27,326 nucleotides of DNA from a virus. Both the position numbers and the translations under genes were made by a program. This document shows positions 14,003 to 22,898 of this stretch, in pieces. The stretch lies in the IMG/VR virus record IMGVR_UViG_3300025889_000774, positions 1 through 27,326 of that record. One strand, given 5' to 3'. The notes beneath the pieces are model-generated. The model was not told the DNA's origin and searched no databases. It was given only the letters and a program-made list of their open reading frames with translations. Within the stretch, counting starts at the first letter, position 1; each line of letters opens with the position of its first letter.

Positions 14003-14415
14003 TTCAGTCTGTAAAATTTATGTTTGCCAACTATAGCAACAGGCTTTCTGCCCTTTGCCCAGTAGGGGGCCTTGATGTAGCTGGCATAGTAGTGGTCAGC
14101 ATATCCAGTCTTTGCCCTGTTCATTCGGTCAATGTTAGCCTCCAAATAAAGCGCATACTTGGCTTGTGGAGTCTTGTAGAGGTGTTCCAAGTCGGACTCA
14201 CTTTTACCGTTCCAACATGAGAACTGCCACTTCTGCAAGCAGACCTGTTCAGGTGTCAGGTTTCGGTTGATGGCTCTCTGGCTAATCACGCAGGAAACTG
14301 CTGCCATTCCATCACGGCCTTCCCCTCTCGATTCTGCGAGAATTGTCAATGCTACCACACCCGCGCTGAGTTGTGAAGGCAGGATGAGGAGCAACATCAA
14401 TAATGCAGGTTTCAT
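13999..14415 (-). CDS. Secreted SleB-like cell wall hydrolase
   Basis: A 138-aa protein. Residues 1-18 (MKPALLMLLLILPSQLSA) are a signal peptide or signal anchor. LTILAESRGEGRDGMAAVSCVI (23-44) carries the catalytic Glu28 of the Hydrolase_2/SleB fold, followed by CLQKWQFSCW and a C-terminal AKGRKPVAIVGKHKFYRL. Enzymes of this family cleave peptidoglycan glycan strands. With Sec export it could act as an endolysin that reaches the periplasm without a classical holin. It is ATGA-coupled to the resolvase-like gene upstream and to a zinc-ribbon gene downstream. Confidence 0.86.
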   Translation of the reverse strand: MKPALLMLLLILPSQLSAGVVALTILAESRGEGRDGMAAVSCVISQRAINRNLTPEQVCLQKWQFSCWNGKSESDLEHLYKTPQAKYALYLEANIDRMNRAKTGYADHYYASYIKAPYWAKGRKPVAIVGKHKFYRLK

Positions 14416-14765
14416 AATTGGATTGCCTCCTCCAATGCTTTAAGGTCACATGTCTGTATGATTTTGAGCAAATCCTTTGCGGTCAATATAGCCACCCATT
14501 CACGGTTGTTGCTCTTCCAAGTGATGACAGGAATCTGGTAATCCTTGCAGTCACCTGCTGCCTGTGAAAGCCAATCACGTATCTGGCACCGCTCGGTGTT
14601 CTTTACTTCCCAGTGTATTGGCAGGTCATGACAGGTCACGTCTGGGGCATCATGGCCTTGTTGGCTCTGGTGGAAGCCTGTTCTCTTGGCAGTGTATCCG
14701 TGTTCTTGCAGAACTTGGACCCATGCTCGCTCCCCTGACGCTCCTTTTCGTTTTGAATTAATCAT
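14412..14765 (-). CDS. Holliday junction resolvase-like nuclease
   Basis: A 117-aa PD-(D/E)XK nuclease. It has KGASGERAW (7-15, Glu12), HDAPDV (38-43, Asp42), HWEVKNTE (51-58, Glu53 and Lys55) and a late strand TWKSNNREWVAIL. This E...PD...ExK layout is that of archaeal Hjc and phage resolvase-like nucleases, which cut branched DNA. It would resolve recombination intermediates before packaging. Its ATG overlaps the stop of the upstream 65-aa gene, and its stop overlaps the hydrolase start (both ATGA). Confidence 0.78.
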   Translation of the reverse strand: MINSKRKGASGERAWVQVLQEHGYTAKRTGFHQSQQGHDAPDVTCHDLPIHWEVKNTERCQIRDWLSQAAGDCKDYQIPVITWKSNNREWVAILTAKDLLKIIQTCDLKALEEAIQL

Positions 14766-14959
14766 GGTCGGCTCATCTTGTAGAGTTTACCCAGTCGGAT
14801 TTGGTCCCGCTGGGAGAGGTTATTTGGGTAGCTCATCCACCCACGTTTAATGCATTTCTCCACCGTCATCAGGAATGCTTCCGTGACAGTTGTTCTTGGA
14901 GGGAACATTCTGCGAATGTCTTCCCATGGCGTTGTTTGTTTGCTTTTTGTCGCTGACAT
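14762..14959 (-). CDS. Small basic protein, first gene of the minus-strand early block
   Basis: A 65-aa basic protein (MSATKSKQTTPWEDIRRMF). Two helices, VTEAFLMTVEKCIKRGW and SQRDQIRLGKLY, resemble a helical nucleic-acid-binding domain, but I do not recognise a family. AGGTG lies about 5 bases upstream of the ATG. The space to the divergent plus-strand cassette is about 120 bp and should hold the minus-strand promoter; TTGCAA and TTGAAA elements are present, without a clear -10. Confidence 0.65.
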   Translation of the reverse strand: MSATKSKQTTPWEDIRRMFPPRTTVTEAFLMTVEKCIKRGWMSYPNNLSQRDQIRLGKLYKMSRP

Positions 14960-15045
14960 GCAACACCTATCCCATGCATTGGTTCAGCTTGCAAGATGTT
15001 TTTTCAACTTTTTTTCTGGGACCATCGGCAGACATCGCAAATGCC

Positions 15046-15074
15046 TTGTATTTATTGGCGATAGTTGGTATATT
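15046..15074 (+). promoter_or_regulatory. Extended -10 sigma70-like promoter of the plus-strand cassette
   Basis: TTGTAT (15046-15051), a 17-bp spacer and TATATT (15069-15074), with TGG directly ahead of the -10 (an extended -10). TATATT matches the consensus at five of six positions. Transcription would begin at about 15081-15082, which coincides with the first plausible ATG of the methyltransferase at 15082. Confidence 0.5.
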
Positions 15075-15081
15075 CCTTCGC

Positions 15082-15729
15082 ATGCTAATGTATCACACGT
15101 TTCCTGACCTCGGCATCCAGGGAGTATACGACCACGAACCGTTGGTTAGCTATTATGCCATTCCTACCTTGAAAGGTCTGTCAGTGCTTGATGCAGGGTG
15201 TGCATCTGGCTATTGGTCTAAATTATTTTACGAGCAAGGCGCAGATGTTACATCGTTAGACATTAACCTTGAAGCATATAAAGAAGTTCAGAAAAAGTGT
15301 AAGATGCGAACCAAGCAGGTTCATGCTTCGGTCTATGATTACAATAACCCGAATGCGTTTGACGTGGTTTTCTGTTCCAGCCTGCTCATGCACTGTGTCT
15401 ATCCTGTCAAACTGTTAGGCCACTTACGAGACCAGCTTAAGCCCGGAGGGCTGCTTATACTGGCAACTGCCTACAACGGTGACCCTGGGAGGTCTGTTCA
15501 CATCGAGGACCACCGTGGACGGAATGCCACTGAGGTCGAAACAAGAATCGAATCTTCCAACGAGAGTCTGTGGTGGTGCGGCAAGCAGGCTCTTAAAAGC
15601 ATGGCTGGCTCAGTAGGGTTTCAGAACCCTGACATTGTTGGCGAATTTGTCTTAACAACAACTGACCATGGACGGTCCATTGGTCATCACTACTCAACTC
15701 CACATATAGTGTTACATGCAAACAAATAA
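15082..15729 (+). CDS. Class I SAM-dependent methyltransferase
   Basis: 215 aa from the ATG at 15082. Motif I is VLDAGCASG (35-43), an acidic Asp ends the next strand (VTSLDIN), and FDVVFCSSLLMHC plus LKPGGLLILAT complete a Rossmann methyltransferase. The opening (FPDLGIQGVYDHEP, before the VLDAG motif) resembles the DUF1698/CmoB-like group. The frame is open further upstream, but that part would run into the minus-strand gene at 14762-14959. No Shine-Dalgarno is visible, so translation may be leaderless. It overlaps the radical SAM gene by 14 bases. The substrate is unknown. Confidence 0.82.
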   Translation: MLMYHTFPDLGIQGVYDHEPLVSYYAIPTLKGLSVLDAGCASGYWSKLFYEQGADVTSLDINLEAYKEVQKKCKMRTKQVHASVYDYNNPNAFDVVFCSSLLMHCVYPVKLLGHLRDQLKPGGLLILATAYNGDPGRSVHIEDHRGRNATEVETRIESSNESLWWCGKQALKSMAGSVGFQNPDIVGEFVLTTTDHGRSIGHHYSTPHIVLHANK

Positions 15730-16648
15730 AGAGGGACTCTACTGCTCAGGAGGCAAGAACTGGATTAGCATTGGAAGCGAAGGTGACGTTTACCCGTGCA
15801 ACAGTCTTGTCTATAACAAGGACCATTTACTCGGCAACATGCTGGACGGCCCAGTCAAGCTGTCAAAGGATTTCATGCGCTGCCCGTGGCAGGGTTGCCA
15901 ACAGATATGCGATAGGCACTGGTCATCAAAAGCAGTATTCAAGGATGGACTGGTCACGGACCAGGAAAACGTCATTAACCCAAGCGTCTTTGAAGGCAAG
16001 AAAAACCCAGCAGCAATGATTTGGGCTGCTTCCTGGGTCTGTAACTACAACTGCCAGTATTGCGGGCTCCCCAAGGACACAAGGAAAACAACTGCTGACC
16101 AATGGGTAGAAGCCTTTAAGCAGTTTCTGGACTTGAATGAGTTTGACGGAGGCTTGTTCAACACCAATGGTGGCGAACCGTTGTTCTATGACGGGATTGA
16201 GAAGGTGTTTGCATTTATGGCTGACAGGGGTTTTGCCATAAGCCTGACGACAAACCTGTCAAGTGATATTTGGAACAAGGTGGTGCATGCTGCACCGCCA
16301 GAGAAGTGGGGGATTATTAATTGCTCCCTGCATGTCACTGAACCCAAGTTCAACTGGGAGATATTTGCGGGCCGCATCCTTGCTCTGAAGGCAATGGGGT
16401 ATCCTGTGTCGGTCAACTATGTGGGGCACCCGTCCCAGGTCATGCTGGCTCCAGAGTATGCGGAGTATTTTACAAAGCGTGGCATTGGGTTCTGCTTAAT
16501 CCCAATGATTGGCCAATATGGGAAGTTCAATTTCCCGACCATTGAGTCATACCCGCCAGCCATGCGTGATGTGCTGAAAGCACACTGCCCTGACAGTCTT
16601 AAGGACACAAACAGGTTCGATGACGGGAAACGGGTTGAAGCCAAGTAA
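15716..16648 (+). CDS. Radical SAM protein with N-terminal Cys cluster
   Basis: A 310-aa radical SAM enzyme. C109-x3-C113-x2-C116 binds the [4Fe-4S] cluster that cleaves SAM, and GGEP (152-155) is the SAM-binding motif. Ahead of it lie C10, GSEGDVYPCN (C28), LLGN and C56-P-W-x2-C61-x3-C65, a pattern like the SPASM auxiliary cluster domain but placed N-terminal. In known SPASM enzymes this domain follows the barrel. Related proteins occur in surface-glycan and peptide-modification clusters. Substrate is unknown. The start overlaps the methyltransferase stop, and TAATG links it to the glycosyltransferase. Confidence 0.85.
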   Translation: MQTNKEGLYCSGGKNWISIGSEGDVYPCNSLVYNKDHLLGNMLDGPVKLSKDFMRCPWQGCQQICDRHWSSKAVFKDGLVTDQENVINPSVFEGKKNPAAMIWAASWVCNYNCQYCGLPKDTRKTTADQWVEAFKQFLDLNEFDGGLFNTNGGEPLFYDGIEKVFAFMADRGFAISLTTNLSSDIWNKVVHAAPPEKWGIINCSLHVTEPKFNWEIFAGRILALKAMGYPVSVNYVGHPSQVMLAPEYAEYFTKRGIGFCLIPMIGQYGKFNFPTIESYPPAMRDVLKAHCPDSLKDTNRFDDGKRVEAK

Positions 16649-17373
16649 TGAGCATACCAAAAACAGCATACTTCGTTTACGGGGAGCACAAAACCAACCC
16701 GATGCCTGACACTGGGTTTGCCAACATGGCAGACTTTGTTCGCCTGAACAATGGCTGGCAAAGCAGGTTCATCACGCTGGATGACTTCAATCCAGAGCAT
16801 GCGGACATCTTTGAGTGGAACAAGCTTGCATGGTCGCAGGTCGCCAGGTATGAGCTGGTGTATCAGCACGGTGGGCTTTACTCGGATGTTGATATTGAGT
16901 TTTACGGACCGCTTCCTGCCATGGACGAATGTGACATGGTCATCGCTTGTGAGACGCATGGCGGGGTCAGCGATGCGTTTTTTGCAGCTACCCCAGGTCA
17001 CTCAATACTCGGTGAGTGCCTTGAAAAGTCCGTCCATTGGTGCCGCAGAAAGATGGGCATGGGTGTCAAGTCCTTCACAACAGAAGACCTGTTCAACGGA
17101 TGCGGGGTGACGTTCTTCACTAAAACAGTCAAGGCTCGCACGGGATTCAATATGTGCTATGAGCAGCAGTTGCACATGGCTCAGCAGGATTTCGGTGGCA
17201 AGTTCCATCCTGAAAAGGGTGTCGGCATTCTGCCATTTGAGGCATTGTGCAGGCACAATCGGGCCAACTGGGTTGGCTGGCACCAGTGTGTCGGGACATG
17301 GAGACCAAGAACTGAAGCAGGTGAAAAAGACATGAGGATGGAAGCATGCCTACCAGCGAATTTGAACACGTAG
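16648..17373 (+). CDS. DXD glycosyltransferase (GT32-like, capsular polysaccharide type)
   Basis: A 241-aa protein with the GT-A DXD signature: SQVARYELVYQHGGLYSDVDIEF, with GG at 75-76 and DVD at 80-82. This R-x-LY-x-GG-YsDvD pattern defines the Gly_transf_sug family, which transfers a sugar from a nucleotide-sugar to a glycan, lipid or protein. There is no transmembrane segment. The start shares a base with the upstream stop (TAATG) and the end overlaps the next gene by 28 bases. It probably acts with the flanking methyltransferases on one glycan, inferred from operon structure. Confidence 0.85.
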   Translation: MSIPKTAYFVYGEHKTNPMPDTGFANMADFVRLNNGWQSRFITLDDFNPEHADIFEWNKLAWSQVARYELVYQHGGLYSDVDIEFYGPLPAMDECDMVIACETHGGVSDAFFAATPGHSILGECLEKSVHWCRRKMGMGVKSFTTEDLFNGCGVTFFTKTVKARTGFNMCYEQQLHMAQQDFGGKFHPEKGVGILPFEALCRHNRANWVGWHQCVGTWRPRTEAGEKDMRMEACLPANLNT

Positions 17374-18005
17374 CCCAGAACTGGGACCACCTAGCCAAGA
17401 CGGAGCCATACTACGCCGTCTTGACCGACGAGGCAAACAGGCAAGGCCCGAGCGAATACTTCTGGCAGTCGGGCGATGTGGTTGCAAGTTTGATTCAACG
17501 GGAAGTTGCCTTGGCTGGTTTGTCGTTGTCCGAGCTGCATGCCTGTGAACTAGGGTCAGGTGTTGGTCGTGTTGCACAAGCCATGTATCGGCTATGCAAA
17601 TCTGTGACCGGCTTTGACGTTAGCCAAACCATGGTGGAGGTTGCTTCAAAGAACTTCCCGTATATACAGTTCAGGCATTTTGATGGCAGACTGGAGCCAT
17701 TGTCATGTGACCTGGTTTATAGTGTAATCGTTTTGCAACACAACCCACCGGAAGTCATTGGTAAGATGTTGAGAACCATGTTCTCGGCTGCACGGCATGC
17801 TGTATGGTTTCAGTTGCCACTGCCAACCGGAGAGCAGGACACCATGCCTGCTATCCCTGCCATCCCGATGTATGGTATGCCAGAGCATGCAGTTCTGGAG
17901 ATAGGCAGGCAGTCAGGCTTCGACTTTGTCGCCATCATCAATGACCATTTTGCCGTGCCAGGGATGGACAGTCGGAGGTATGTTTTTACCAGAAAAAAGA
18001 TTTAA
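17346..18005 (+). CDS. Class I SAM-dependent methyltransferase
   Basis: A 219-aa methyltransferase. Motif I is CELGSGVGR (67-75), followed by VTGFDVSQTMVEVA and CDLVYSVIVLQHNPPEV, a layout typical of Methyltransf_11/25. GGATGGAAGC precedes the ATG at 17346. It is the last gene of the plus-strand cassette and is followed by a strong intrinsic terminator. It differs clearly from the first methyltransferase, so the cassette carries two non-paralogous methyl transfer steps. The substrate is unknown; a sugar hydroxyl or a nucleotide-sugar intermediate is a reasonable inference. Confidence 0.85.
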   Translation: MPTSEFEHVAQNWDHLAKTEPYYAVLTDEANRQGPSEYFWQSGDVVASLIQREVALAGLSLSELHACELGSGVGRVAQAMYRLCKSVTGFDVSQTMVEVASKNFPYIQFRHFDGRLEPLSCDLVYSVIVLQHNPPEVIGKMLRTMFSAARHAVWFQLPLPTGEQDTMPAIPAIPMYGMPEHAVLEIGRQSGFDFVAIINDHFAVPGMDSRRYVFTRKKI

Positions 18006-18158
18006 TTTGTTATTGACCTTGGTGGGATTTGTGGCAAGGTGGGTTCGTTCTGGCCGCCAGCCTTCGCTGTCACGGATTAGACAGAACTATCGACACGAAT
18101 AATGGATTGTCTGAAATTCGGCCTCGGTAGTTTGTAACGACAAACGAATACGACGACA

Positions 18159-18193
18159 CCTCCCCTTGATTGGATACCAAGGGGAGGTTTTTT
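18159..18193 (+). terminator. Rho-independent terminator of the plus-strand cassette
   Basis: CCTCCCCTTG (18159-18168) pairs perfectly with CAAGGGGAGG (18178-18187) around a 9-nt loop, followed by six Ts. The T tract lies on the plus strand, so it stops the cassette before transcription can run into the converging polyvalent gene, whose stop codon overlaps it. The rest of 18006-18158 holds a GTTTGT-AACG-ACAAAC hairpin (18130-18145) and no gene that I can support. Confidence 0.9.
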
Positions 18194-21100
18194 ATTTTGC
18201 TTTACTCTGCAAATACCTCTCGGCCTTCTCCACTGACTGAAACACTGGGCCAACCCTTTTGCCGTTTTTGTCATACATTCTCACACCTGCCCGAGAACTT
18301 GTCTGGACTGCTCTGTGTCCCTGCTCGGTAGTGTAAATAGCACCACCACGTTTGTTCAGGGTTCTGGCTGGGGAGAAGCGTGGCCCAGGCATGTCCTTGG
18401 TTATAACATGCCCTTTCGGTCTGTCCCTAACAGAGTCCACTGAATAAGGCTCCTTGTATTTGACAGGGTCAAGCATGGGGTATCCATATTTACCCTGCTC
18501 TCCGAATGCAAATTCTGAGTCGTCTTTGACTAGGTGTTTTTCAAAGTCTGCATCAAACTCCTGCTTTGTTGCGTAGAACTTAGGTTGACCAACTGTCACT
18601 TCACCTATGACATCACCAGAGCCTTGCCCTGTTGTTCTGACCAACTTGACCCGCTTTCCAACGAGACTGTTGAGGGTCGGCCTCACTCTGGTCTCAATAC
18701 TCTTGAGACCTTCAACAATCATGTCAGCAAAAGGAGAACCTTGTTCATTTCGGACATTGAAGGCAGGCATTGATTCACTAGCCCTACTTGGAGAGAAGCG
18801 GGTTTCGCCTGTCAACTTAAAGTGTTCATCGGTGATAGCTTTTCTGCCCTTGTTTCCGCTCGGTCCTGAGTCAGCAGACACAACCTGAATTGGTGGAAGC
18901 TTAGACGAATTGTTTTTGAAGGCCTGACGAATGTTTTCTTTAAATAAGCGAACCTCGTCTGGCTTGTTGGATACAATGGTGACCTTCTTCACGTTTGACA
19001 GGTCTGGGTTCAATACATATGCCTCTGTCCTATTCCGCTGAATGGCCACTGTCATTGGGACGCCTTCAGGACTGGCATAGCTGGCTGCTTTGCCTTGGCT
19101 TTGCTTGCCCACAAGCTCGCTGGATACCACTTTCGCCAACTCTTTCTTGGCAGCAGATAAACCCCCTTTCTTGTAGGCTTTCTTGACTTCATTCAGCCCA
19201 GAGGAAGGAGTAGAGACCATGAGTTGGTGTGTTCTGGCAGTTGGTATCCCTTTGTTCCCTACCAGTAGGTGCGTGTCCAGCACCTTCTTCCCTGATGGAA
19301 GCGTGGTGTAGGTTTCGTTGTTTGGGTCTCCGAATGTTCGTGCATTCTTGTCACCAACATTTGCTGATGCATGGATGTCTGTTAATCCATTGGCGACACC
19401 ATAGTGATGGTGTGATGTGGCAACAATTGGGGTTTTCTGGTCCCACTCAAAGAACACATTGTAGTTTCCTTGGCTTCCGAACTTTTGCCCCTCCACAACA
19501 CTGGAATACACGCGAGGAGGTGATGCCGCATCGTCTCGCAGTGAAGAGCCAAACGCCTTTGTGTCAGCAAGACGTTCCCCTGTCACGAATGATTGGCCTT
19601 GCTCGGGCGTGACTTGCCTGACCCCGGATTCTGCGCCCCCTACTTGCTGCGCCTTCATCATGGCTAAGTCAATATCGTTCTCAAACGATTCAAAGGCTGA
19701 CGTTAACCAGTTAGGGTTGACACTTGCCCTTGTTTTGACTGATGGTCTTCCGCTCCCAGCGAGCCTGCTCAAGTCAGACTTGCCCATGCCGCTGATAACC
19801 TGCGCTGCACCCTTGACCTTGTTGTGAACATTCTTGAAAGTGTCTGACGCCATTGTTCTGGCCTCGGAAACGGGTATGCCAAGGTTGATTAACCGAGATG
19901 ACAGTGACTCGATAGCGTCCGCTTTAAGCACCTTGATTCGCTCGGGCGTTTTGGCTTCGTAGTGCTGTTGCAGCTCTTTAATTCTGTCAGCCTGCTCTTT
20001 GGTCAACCGTCCTTGAACGGGTTGGTTTTCTGGGTGCTTCTCAACAGGGAGGACTGGTTCAGGGCTAAAGTTAACCTGACCCATCTCGTAGGCTCTCTCG
20101 CTGAACTGTGCCTTCACGTCTTCCAGCTTCCTTGCCTTGACAAACCGGTCCAACCTGAAGCTGCGCCACGGATGGTCTGCTTCCTTGAGGTTGTAAGTGT
20201 CGGGCAGTTCTGGGTTGCCTTTGACATTCCGGACACCCAGCATCTTGTTTAGGTGATTGCGCTTCTCAGCACTGCCCAGGACTTGAGCAGTGGGAACGTC
20301 CCCACCTAATGCATTGACGTAGGTCAAAGCGTCGTTATACATGCCATCAGGGCCGTCAAACAGGTTGTGAAGCCTGCTATCACCGGACCACAGTCTCTGT
20401 ATCTTGGAGCGAAGCAGGGACAGGTCAAGAATGTTGGCAGTGATGGTTCCAACCGGGGACACAGTCAATCCATAAATCAGTGCATCCCTGTTTGAGATGG
20501 GAAGGTTTTTTGCCCGTGTCTTGCCTCGCTTGGTCTTGTATGTTGCAGCACCATAAGTGACGTTGACAGCATCGGACCCAGACTGCCTGATGTCGGCAAT
20601 AAACTGGATGACCTCCTTGACCTTGTCGGACAGGAACGGTGCGTCCAGCAATGCTCTCAGTTGGTCAGGACTGAAGTTTCTGCCTTTGTAGGACCCGTCA
20701 GACTGCCTGAGCATGCCCCCAGCGTCGTTCACACCGGCCAGGGTGTCTTTCAGTTGTTTACCGAGTTCCTTCGTTTCCTTACCAATCCGGTAGTTGGATT
20801 TTATTATCCGCTTGCCCTTATTGTCCAACTCTGCCACGCCAAGTGCTTGCAGTTCGTTGAAGACATTGTCGTCACCAAGGTCGTTCTCACCATAGGCTCG
20901 GATGTAATCGTCTGCTGACAACTCGACCTGCTTGTACGCCTTCCTGCGAGCCTTGACCAAGTCATTCATGGCTCGGTCCAATGCTCGATTGCGCTTCAGG
21001 TGTGACTTGAAGATGGGAGACTTAAACGTGTCATAGATTCGGTCCAGCTTGCCAGCCACGAACCGGTTTACAAACCCACTCAACGCATCCTTGAGGGGTG

Positions 21101-22898
21101 ACCCTTTCAGCAGATAGGAACTGTCTTTGCCCTGGATGAAGCGGGCAAAGTGTTCGGCTCCCAGTTCCTCCATGATGGCAGAGAACTTGTCATCGGTTGT
21201 AACCAACCCTTCACGGCCCTTCAGTGCAATTCCGCTTGCTTCGTATTCCTTGACAAACTGATTGATTTCTGCTGGGGAATACATCTTGCCAAGTTCGGAC
21301 GTGATGTTTGACACAAGTCCATCGAAGCCATCCAGCCGAGCAATTCCATGGAACATCTCATGGAAGAGGGTTGTGGTGTCTCCTTTGTTGCCGTTGATGT
21401 AAAGCACCGGCCTCTCACCCTCTACCACCTGCACCCCTGCTCCAGTTGCTTCGTCTTTGTCTTTCTGGAACCTGGCACGGAAGTCGTCATCAGAAATAAT
21501 CCGGATGTCAGCTTCATCTCCCAGTGCAGTCTGGAACATCTGCCAACCGTCCATGACTTGGACACGGGCCTGCTCGGACTTGACGTTCTGGTCCATGAAG
21601 TCTTTGACTTCTCTGGGCTGCTGTGTATACCACGTCTGGTAGTCGTTGGCTTCTGCTCGGCGTTTGCTGACCCCTGACAGGCCTTCTGCGGCCCTTGAGA
21701 ACCCTCCAGCACCTGCACCAAGCACACCACCTGCACCAAGGCCTTGTGCGGCTCCCTCCATGCCTCCAGCCAAGGCTCCAAGCCCAGCACCGTAGGCAGC
21801 ACCTTGAACTGCTCCTCCTGCTGTTCTGCCTGCATAATCAGCGACAGGGTCCAAGAACTTCAGCCTTCCGGCCATCTTGCCTGCCCTTGTCTGGGGTGAG
21901 CTCATGGCTAGGTGGTGCAATGGGCCAATGCGAGTCGGCATGTTGCCCATCGCGTTTGCGAACCCCTTGAACAACCCAGAAGCCACCTCCAATGTAGGCA
22001 CGGCCATTGCCACACCAGCACCAACACCAGCAGCAGGAGCAAGCCCAACAGAACCTGCCAAGGCTCCAACACCACCAGGTAGAGCATACTTGCCCAAACC
22101 TCCGGTAGTCTCATCAGTCAGCTTGGCAAGTTGCCCGGCCTTCTCTGCGACTTTGGATTCCAAGCTTGACAAGCCTCTGGCTGCTGCACCGGTTGCCCTG
22201 GAAGCCAACTCAGCAGGTTTTGCTGCAACACTACCCAGTGCTTTGTTAATGAATGAGCCAACCTTGGTGGAGCCACCCGACACCAGGACAGTTGGGTCCA
22301 AAAAGTAGGATGCCGCTTCGGCCATCTCTGTGTTAATCGAAGCAGGGTCCGCTGAAATGCCAAACCGTGACAGAATAGTGGAGTCACCCTTTCTGGCCGC
22401 TTCCCTGATGGAGTCCATCTCCTTGATGGCAAGGAATCGGTTATACTGGTCCTTCTTTGCGTCTCCGGTGTCCTGAATGTAGGGCTCAATGTATGTGTTC
22501 AGGTTGTCACCGATACGCATGGCCAGGTTGCCTAAATCGTAAGTCCCTCGGGCAGCACCTTCTGCCAGGGATGCTCCCATTTCCCCAAGCTGACCTTGTG
22601 CGGCCAAGTTCAGGGTAGACCGGACACCGTTCATCAGCTCGCTGGCGACAACCCCTGCCCCTTGTGCTACCAGTCCGGCCAAGTCACCAACGGACAATTC
22701 CGGCTTCAGTTCCTGATAACGCTGGAAGTCTTCAAACGAAACAGCAGACGCTGGTGTGGCAGGGTCTGCTATTCGTGACACGAACTGGTCATCTGTTTCA
22801 GGATAAGCCTTGTTCAGTGTCTCCTGGATGACGTTGTCCGGTGTGTCGTCTGGAAACTGTTCAACTACGTCATATCCGTCTATGTAGTATTCTTTCAT
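18192..22898 (-). CDS. 1568-aa polyvalent internal virion protein: Gly/Ala-rich segments, HExxH peptidase motif, ASCH-like domain
   Basis: A giant multidomain protein. The first 400 residues include Gly/Ala-rich hydrophobic stretches (about 265-315 and 355-400), as in membrane-penetrating ejection proteins. HEMFH at 513-517, with EELGAE (577-582), is a zinc-metallopeptidase motif (HExxH plus distal Glu). The C-terminal part has an ASCH-like domain from about 1378 (SPFADMIVEGLKSIETR at 1388-1404). RFSP or NFSP motifs occur at 741, 943, 1367 and 1507 and bound the segments. This is the architecture of phage polyvalent proteins, packaged and ejected into the cell. Activities are inferred. It is ATGA-coupled to the upstream internal protein. 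Confidence 0.85.
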   Translation of the reverse strand: MKEYYIDGYDVVEQFPDDTPDNVIQETLNKAYPETDDQFVSRIADPATPASAVSFEDFQRYQELKPELSVGDLAGLVAQGAGVVASELMNGVRSTLNLAAQGQLGEMGASLAEGAARGTYDLGNLAMRIGDNLNTYIEPYIQDTGDAKKDQYNRFLAIKEMDSIREAARKGDSTILSRFGISADPASINTEMAEAASYFLDPTVLVSGGSTKVGSFINKALGSVAAKPAELASRATGAAARGLSSLESKVAEKAGQLAKLTDETTGGLGKYALPGGVGALAGSVGLAPAAGVGAGVAMAVPTLEVASGLFKGFANAMGNMPTRIGPLHHLAMSSPQTRAGKMAGRLKFLDPVADYAGRTAGGAVQGAAYGAGLGALAGGMEGAAQGLGAGGVLGAGAGGFSRAAEGLSGVSKRRAEANDYQTWYTQQPREVKDFMDQNVKSEQARVQVMDGWQMFQTALGDEADIRIISDDDFRARFQKDKDEATGAGVQVVEGERPVLYINGNKGDTTTLFHEMFHGIARLDGFDGLVSNITSELGKMYSPAEINQFVKEYEASGIALKGREGLVTTDDKFSAIMEELGAEHFARFIQGKDSSYLLKGSPLKDALSGFVNRFVAGKLDRIYDTFKSPIFKSHLKRNRALDRAMNDLVKARRKAYKQVELSADDYIRAYGENDLGDDNVFNELQALGVAELDNKGKRIIKSNYRIGKETKELGKQLKDTLAGVNDAGGMLRQSDGSYKGRNFSPDQLRALLDAPFLSDKVKEVIQFIADIRQSGSDAVNVTYGAATYKTKRGKTRAKNLPISNRDALIYGLTVSPVGTITANILDLSLLRSKIQRLWSGDSRLHNLFDGPDGMYNDALTYVNALGGDVPTAQVLGSAEKRNHLNKMLGVRNVKGNPELPDTYNLKEADHPWRSFRLDRFVKARKLEDVKAQFSERAYEMGQVNFSPEPVLPVEKHPENQPVQGRLTKEQADRIKELQQHYEAKTPERIKVLKADAIESLSSRLINLGIPVSEARTMASDTFKNVHNKVKGAAQVISGMGKSDLSRLAGSGRPSVKTRASVNPNWLTSAFESFENDIDLAMMKAQQVGGAESGVRQVTPEQGQSFVTGERLADTKAFGSSLRDDAASPPRVYSSVVEGQKFGSQGNYNVFFEWDQKTPIVATSHHHYGVANGLTDIHASANVGDKNARTFGDPNNETYTTLPSGKKVLDTHLLVGNKGIPTARTHQLMVSTPSSGLNEVKKAYKKGGLSAAKKELAKVVSSELVGKQSQGKAASYASPEGVPMTVAIQRNRTEAYVLNPDLSNVKKVTIVSNKPDEVRLFKENIRQAFKNNSSKLPPIQVVSADSGPSGNKGRKAITDEHFKLTGETRFSPSRASESMPAFNVRNEQGSPFADMIVEGLKSIETRVRPTLNSLVGKRVKLVRTTGQGSGDVIGEVTVGQPKFYATKQEFDADFEKHLVKDDSEFAFGEQGKYGYPMLDPVKYKEPYSVDSVRDRPKGHVITKDMPGPRFSPARTLNKRGGAIYTTEQGHRAVQTSSRAGVRMYDKNGKRVGPVFQSVEKAERYLQSKAK

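Follow-up and report, generated by a model that had tools for sequence, protein, structure and literature searches.

Why would a phage carry two methyltransferases, a radical S-adenosylmethionine (SAM) enzyme and a glycosyltransferase as one block of genes, and on what would these enzymes act? The question is raised by the IMG/VR record IMGVR_UViG_3300025889_000774, a linear viral contig of 27,326 bases that is probably incomplete and whose full length was analysed here (the window). Four of its genes, denoted MT1, rSAM, GT and MT2, make up one real, well-built accessory operon, placed in a slot where related phages exchange whole cassettes. With little better than even confidence, we propose that this operon builds and decorates a glycan, most likely one on the host surface, with a change of receptor and the exclusion of rival phages as the outcome. 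The features of the locus are as follows.

15046-15074, plus strand: candidate promoter, weak (-35 TTGTAT and extended -10 TGGTATATT)
15082-15729, plus strand: MT1, class I SAM-dependent methyltransferase, 215 amino acids (PF13489, PF08241)
15716-16648, plus strand: rSAM, radical SAM enzyme, 310 amino acids (PF04055, SPASM-like N-terminus)
16648-17373, plus strand: GT, GT-A glycosyltransferase, 241 amino acids (PF04488/Och1-like, DXD)
17346-18005, plus strand: MT2, second class I methyltransferase, 219 amino acids (PF13649)
18158-18195, plus strand: intrinsic terminator (11-bp stem, 9-nt loop, T run)
14412-14765, minus strand: left slot flank, conserved PDDEXK endonuclease gene (PF24608; 63-71% identity in sister phages)
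18192-22898, minus strand: right slot flank, giant protein of 1568 amino acids (conserved C-terminal motif in 20 open reading frames (ORFs))

The cassette and its setting

The four genes span 15082-18005 and each overlaps the next, by 14 bases between MT1 and rSAM (15716-15729), by one base between rSAM and GT (TAATG at 16646-16650) and by 28 bases between GT and MT2 (17346-17373). A sequence-only reading of the window had reported these same overlaps, and had described the four as the only plus-strand genes, which is borne out: the minus strand holds every other credible gene, and both GC and AT skew flip sign across approximately 15,000-18,000, the same stretch as the cassette. The giant late-gene protein lies on one side and the early region on the other, in agreement with the accessory slot that had been proposed.

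A slot for exchange of cassettes

The surroundings were compared across 56 related loci gathered through the flanking PDDEXK gene (loci and contigs are given by L numbers). Where the slot could be resolved, from the conserved C-terminus of the giant gene to the early region, it mostly holds two to five genes, at least one of them glycosyltransferase-like, and in approximately 15 non-redundant sister loci the cargo always includes at least one such gene. The glycosyltransferases are of PF03407 type, GT2, a GT-B-like family, a GNT-I-like family, or homologues of the window GT, and other cargo in sister phages includes methyltransferases, a hexapeptide acyltransferase and radical SAM enzymes. In three pairs of loci (L019/L020, L002/L026, L012/L013) flanking DNA of 92-96% identity encloses non-homologous cargo between fixed borders, and we therefore regard the slot, on sequence grounds, as a cassette-exchange site. 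Extra genes between core modules are thus exchanged among relatives, as in lysogenic-conversion genes (morons), and replacement of cargo between near-identical flanks is what genes for serotype-type conversion would be expected to show.

Several sister phages also carry signs of integration at this position. An integrase family, c14, which is tyrosine-recombinase-like by inspection and has no Pfam match, sits beside the slot in L002, L005, L006, L025-L027 and L034-L040. At 13 loci the 3' end of a transfer-messenger RNA (tmRNA) lies at the start of the integrase gene beside the slot (Rfam tmRNA E values of 5e-7 to 5e-5, with scores short of the gathering threshold), and is apparently the phage attachment site (attP), suggesting integration at ssrA. 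Examples of these tmRNA (ssrA) 3' ends are found at L002:6994-7028, L005:5811-5845, L006:5686-5836 and L038:6343-6377, and also in L025-L027 and L034-L037.

Together, the constant company of glycosyltransferases, the methyl and acyl decoration, the swaps of cargo and the integrase and att site in relatives all point towards cargo of the lysogenic-conversion kind that modifies glycans. The suggestion of a glycan-modification operon in an accessory slot is upheld to this extent, as sister phages fill the slot with sugar-handling genes.

The four enzymes

The domain calls of the sequence-only reading (two unrelated methyltransferases, a radical SAM enzyme and a DXD glycosyltransferase) are upheld by Pfam scores above the cut-offs. 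Both methyltransferases have the Rossmann profile and glycine-rich motif I of class I SAM enzymes, the motif being read from the sequence. MT1 scores 60.8 bits with PF13489 and 55.6 bits with PF08241, and its motif I, DAGCASG, is intact; its frame is open from a TTG at 14890, with the start at ATG 15082 backed by relatives with the N-terminus MFYYHTF. MT2, unrelated to MT1, scores 41.6 bits with PF13649 and has an intact motif I, ELGSGVG.

GT belongs with the PF04488/Och1-like GT-A glycosyltransferases, scoring 25.7 bits with PF04488 (Gly_transf_sug; cut-off 23), with a DXD (DVD at residues 80-82; D80 and D82) that is invariant in five relatives and a predicted GT-A fold. Its AlphaFold model (predicted local distance difference test (pLDDT) 72) matches SetA, YeGT, PaToxG and Och1 in Foldseek, with E values of 4e-8 to 3e-6. 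It differs from other PF04488/Och1-like enzymes in forming a phage subfamily of its own, with a conserved C-terminal NW(V/I)GWHQCxGTWRP motif. No sequence match to GT was found in the PDB or in cultured-phage records, and its homologues (42-49% identity) are in L003, L017, L018, L019 and L028.

The radical SAM enzyme is the most unusual of the four. Membership of the superfamily is clear from both score and motif: residues 109-239 match PF04055 at 31.3 bits (cut-off 29.5) and include CX3CX2C at 109-116 (C109, C113, C116). SPASM domains are usually C-terminal, after the radical SAM core. In rSAM a SPASM-like module with five cysteines occupies residues 10-65, N-terminal to the core (approximately 95-280), and matches the SPASM profile PF13186 over residues 10-44 at 20.6 bits, slightly below the cut-off of 21.5. 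It is thus not a SPASM-domain enzyme in the strict sense of a C-terminal SPASM above the cut-off. Cysteines 10, 28, 56, 61, 65, 109, 113, 116 and 203 are invariant across seven relatives, as is the pattern C-x12-G-x4-C, and in a profile built from these relatives residues 7-68 match the C-terminal SPASM of PDB 5wgg, and residues 80-279 the core of PDB 5v1q. As judged from these matches, the domain order of rSAM is the reverse of the usual one, with SPASM first. The predicted structure (pLDDT 78) weakly resembles HydE, anSME, PqqE and EpeE, as well as, in the viral library, further radical SAM proteins of phages.

The nearest named family, NF033640 (N_Twi_rSAM, 'twitch domain-containing radical SAM protein'), shares by its name an auxiliary-cluster domain and a radical SAM core. 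However, rSAM scores 12.9 bits and an L026 relative 22.2 bits against a cut-off of 170, the profile is matched in its middle only, and rSAM is a separate, shorter family. A second radical SAM family, of 395-397 amino acids and 27-28% identical to rSAM, occupies the same slot beside PF03407-type glycosyltransferases at L026:3286-4479, L038:1979-3172 and L040:2232-3419.

Two modules apparently brought together

Relatives of rSAM in IMG/VR occur in two settings, namely the slot of the sister phages L002, L005 and L006 (59-63% identity) and the T4-like or unrelated contigs L007, L008 and L009 (45-48% identity). The 63% identity between rSAM and its L002 copy exceeds that between the DnaB proteins (only 39%), which suggests that rSAM has moved horizontally. 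MT1 and rSAM recur as a pair in the two T4-like contigs, overlapping in L007 and with an ORF of 122 amino acids between them in L008; the MT1 homologues there are 43-45% identical, and the pair comes right after a GT1-family gene, near DNA polymerase B and an AAA clamp-loader-type ATPase. This GT1-MT1-rSAM module amid replication genes spans L007:5756-8963 and L008:5479-8948, and in L008 a lengthy series of additional glycosyltransferase-like and methyltransferase-like genes comes after it. The other half of the cassette, GT-MT2, recurs as an adjacent pair in the sister phages L017 and L019, where the gene directly after the GT homologue is 37-38% identical to MT2. As each half recurs as a pair elsewhere, the window cassette seems to join two modules of two genes each.

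The exact set MT1-rSAM-GT-MT2 was found nowhere else, in scans that rely on short peptide patterns. The sequence-only reading had named as a refutation that the four genes would nowhere else be seen together, and by that standard its idea of one coordinated four-gene pathway fails in the strict form; a weaker claim, that the functions are coordinated, is kept alive by the pairs that recur. It is also possible, although we consider it doubtful, that rSAM represents a phage-borne permuted family that edits sugars. It would then travel between unrelated phages as half of a two-gene glycan-editing module, with a methyltransferase dedicated to it, and would give phages surface chemistries that the host's own glycan loci lack.

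A cultured-phage collection (50,697 records) was searched by nucleotide comparison and tblastn with the region, the four proteins and one sister GT; there was no match, and the comparison consequently rests on metagenomic viral contigs. Scans of approximately 85,000 species genomes for rSAM and MT1, using peptide patterns of low sensitivity, gave no real relative. A match in a Lacinutrix metagenome-assembled genome, to a generic methyltransferase at 26% identity, was set aside; when 296 genomes from the same phylum were searched with profiles, without a positive control, nothing was found. In core-gene trees the window stands alone on a deep branch. The lineage is almost without cultured relatives, the terminase of a sister phage matching only Phage C75C1, at 28%.

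Promoter and terminator

The sequence-only reading gave the cassette its own promoter and a perfect terminator, and called it self-contained. The extended -10 motif TGGTATATT is indeed present at 15066-15074, 17 nt from a -35 element (TTGTAT, 15046) that fits at three of six positions, and a promoter here is plausible. It would start transcription at approximately 15081, one base ahead of the MT1 ATG, implying a leaderless or nearly leaderless mRNA. The plus strand of the window contains this motif three times, the candidate included, and a promoter scan of the window did not call the site upstream of MT1, so that the motif stands while the promoter itself is weakly evidenced and unproven.

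The terminator is real and strong. Its hairpin (18158-18188) has a perfect stem of 11 bp and a loop of 9 nt, followed by a T-rich stretch to 18195, and folds at -20.2 kcal/mol (z -4.73); there is no second terminator of this type in the window and none in Markov shuffles. A standard terminator scan missed it because the loop is above its 8-nt limit. The hairpin adjoins the stop codon of the giant gene, and in L010-L013 and L032 one terminator is kept at this same place despite differing cargo; it therefore likely belongs to the slot rather than to the cassette. With an apparently slot-owned terminator and an unproven promoter, 'self-contained' describes the cassette less well.

Neighbouring genes

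The giant late protein (L002:10096-16908 in the sister phage) has repeated FSPxR-type motifs and a conserved C-terminus. Its L002 homologue carries ART-PolyVal (PF18760), and it thus looks like an injected protein of the polyvalent type (PMC5512222); the window copy has no Pfam match. Elsewhere in the window two adjacent related genes, 1297-1875 and 1847-2722, encode lysine-rich repeats; an HNH endonuclease domain (PF01844) is present in the larger, and the C-terminus of the smaller is HNH-like as judged by sequence similarity. The window gave no matches in Rfam or in a tRNA search.

What the cassette may do

We propose that the four genes form one operon of soluble cytoplasmic enzymes that would assemble and decorate a glycan. 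GT would attach a sugar to an acceptor, MT1 and MT2 would cap or decorate sugars by O-methylation, and rSAM, judging from what is known of its superfamily, would carry out a C-H reaction on a sugar (epimerisation, oxidation or deoxygenation). The product would alter a surface glycan of the host (O-unit, lipopolysaccharide core or capsule), and the changed receptor would exclude rival phages during infection or lysogeny (superinfection exclusion). We infer this joint pathway, the chemistry of each step, the target and the exclusion. Among the targets first suggested (host surface glycan, virion sugars or another substrate), the host surface is favoured but not settled, since receptor change and exclusion would explain the turnover of cargo and a similar case in pelagimyophages has been read alike.

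Several observations weigh against this proposal. Hydropathy gave no membrane flippase, polymerase or ligase among the slot cargo (a single high value for MT1 is an artefact of the over-extended TTG start), which does not fit the classical gtrABC route, and the enzymes would need to act on cytoplasmic intermediates. The slot cargo has neither a family match to GtrA or GtrB nor repeated hydrophobic spans. The best structural matches of GT include protein-modifying glycosyltransferases, compatible with a protein target. Finally, the window, like the L003/L010-L024 group, has neither integrase nor tmRNA 3' end, and an att remnant was sought in the window and not found, leaving lysogeny of this phage unsupported.

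The main rival is virion glycosylation, in which the enzymes would glycosylate and methylate a structural protein of the phage (capsid, tail fibre or the giant protein), changing adsorption or protecting the particle. We think it unlikely but serious, given the lack of membrane proteins: the four enzymes appear soluble and cytoplasmic, with no flippase among the cargo. Late genes adjoin the cassette, the GT fold is like that of protein glycosyltransferases, GT and rSAM genes in L009 come after a fibre-like ORF of 1919 amino acids, and mycobacteriophage-encoded glycosyltransferases have been proposed to act on the capsid (PMC11256854). Against this, the wholesale swap of cargo between 92-96% identical flanks, which include shared parts of the giant gene, would require the matching change of acceptor to lie elsewhere, and the L007/L008 module sits among replication rather than late genes.

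Modification of host proteins in the infected cell by GT and the other enzymes is improbable. The effector-type protein glycosyltransferases SetA, YeGT and PaToxG do rank above Och1 among the Foldseek matches of GT; however, identity to them is only 12-14%, the glycan-acting Och1 was found in the same search, and the constant presence of several other glycosyltransferase families would be unexpected for protein modification.

A pathway resembling those for ribosomally synthesised and post-translationally modified peptides (RiPPs), with the radical SAM/SPASM enzyme and methyltransferases acting on a peptide precursor, is more improbable still. rSAM and the methyltransferases have weak profile matches to peptide maturases, and the cysteines are of SPASM type, but the family scores of rSAM are approximately 18-39 bits, far under curated cut-offs, its relatives lie among glycosyltransferases, and no RiPP transporter or peptidase was recognised. 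The reading was rejected, as the gaps hold no convincing precursor ORF. Phage glycosyltransferases are known to glycosylate DNA (PMC7029224), but hypermodification of DNA or nucleotides against restriction is the least credible reading and was also rejected, as neither a base-activating enzyme nor a kinase nor a homologue of thymidylate synthase was recognised in the window and cargo differs completely between near-identical phages, unlike a genome-wide base modification.

If modification of the host surface glycan is correct, one small slot would switch whole glycan-modification programmes between near-identical phages, a natural experiment on phage competition through host surface chemistry, and the radical SAM family would bring C-H chemistry on glycans into the repertoire of phages. 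The L019/L020, L002/L026 and L012/L013 pairs offer clean comparisons for the sugar change made by each cassette.

Comparison with known systems

A close parallel is the hypervariable host-recognition region of pelagimyophages, in which cassettes of glycosyltransferases and radical SAM enzymes have been interpreted as modifying the host O-chain (PMC7029224). Like the slot, that region is variable and rich in glycosyltransferases, with added radical SAM cassettes. However, pelagimyophages are large, T4-like phages whose region also contains tail-fibre genes, whereas the phages here are apparently of approximately 40 kb, the slot holds two to five genes between fixed borders, and sister lineages have an integrase and an att site at a tmRNA end.

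Phage O-antigen conversion loci, such as gtrABC of P22, the O-acetylase of D3 and those of the Sf phages (PMC11436027), are likewise accessory glycan-modification genes that vary between close relatives, and in related lineages the slot lies near att and int. The gtrABC system requires the membrane proteins GtrA and GtrB (PMC11436027), whereas the slot shows no protein of this type, and glucosylation or acetylation would give way to methyl and radical chemistry. The strategy is thus already known, from serotype conversion and from the pelagimyophage cassettes. What is new is the way the genes are combined, the slot with its swaps, and a radical SAM family with SPASM first, which was not detected in the genomes and cultured phages searched. 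The slot and this permuted family raise the case above the routine, the biological role of the cassette being presumptive.

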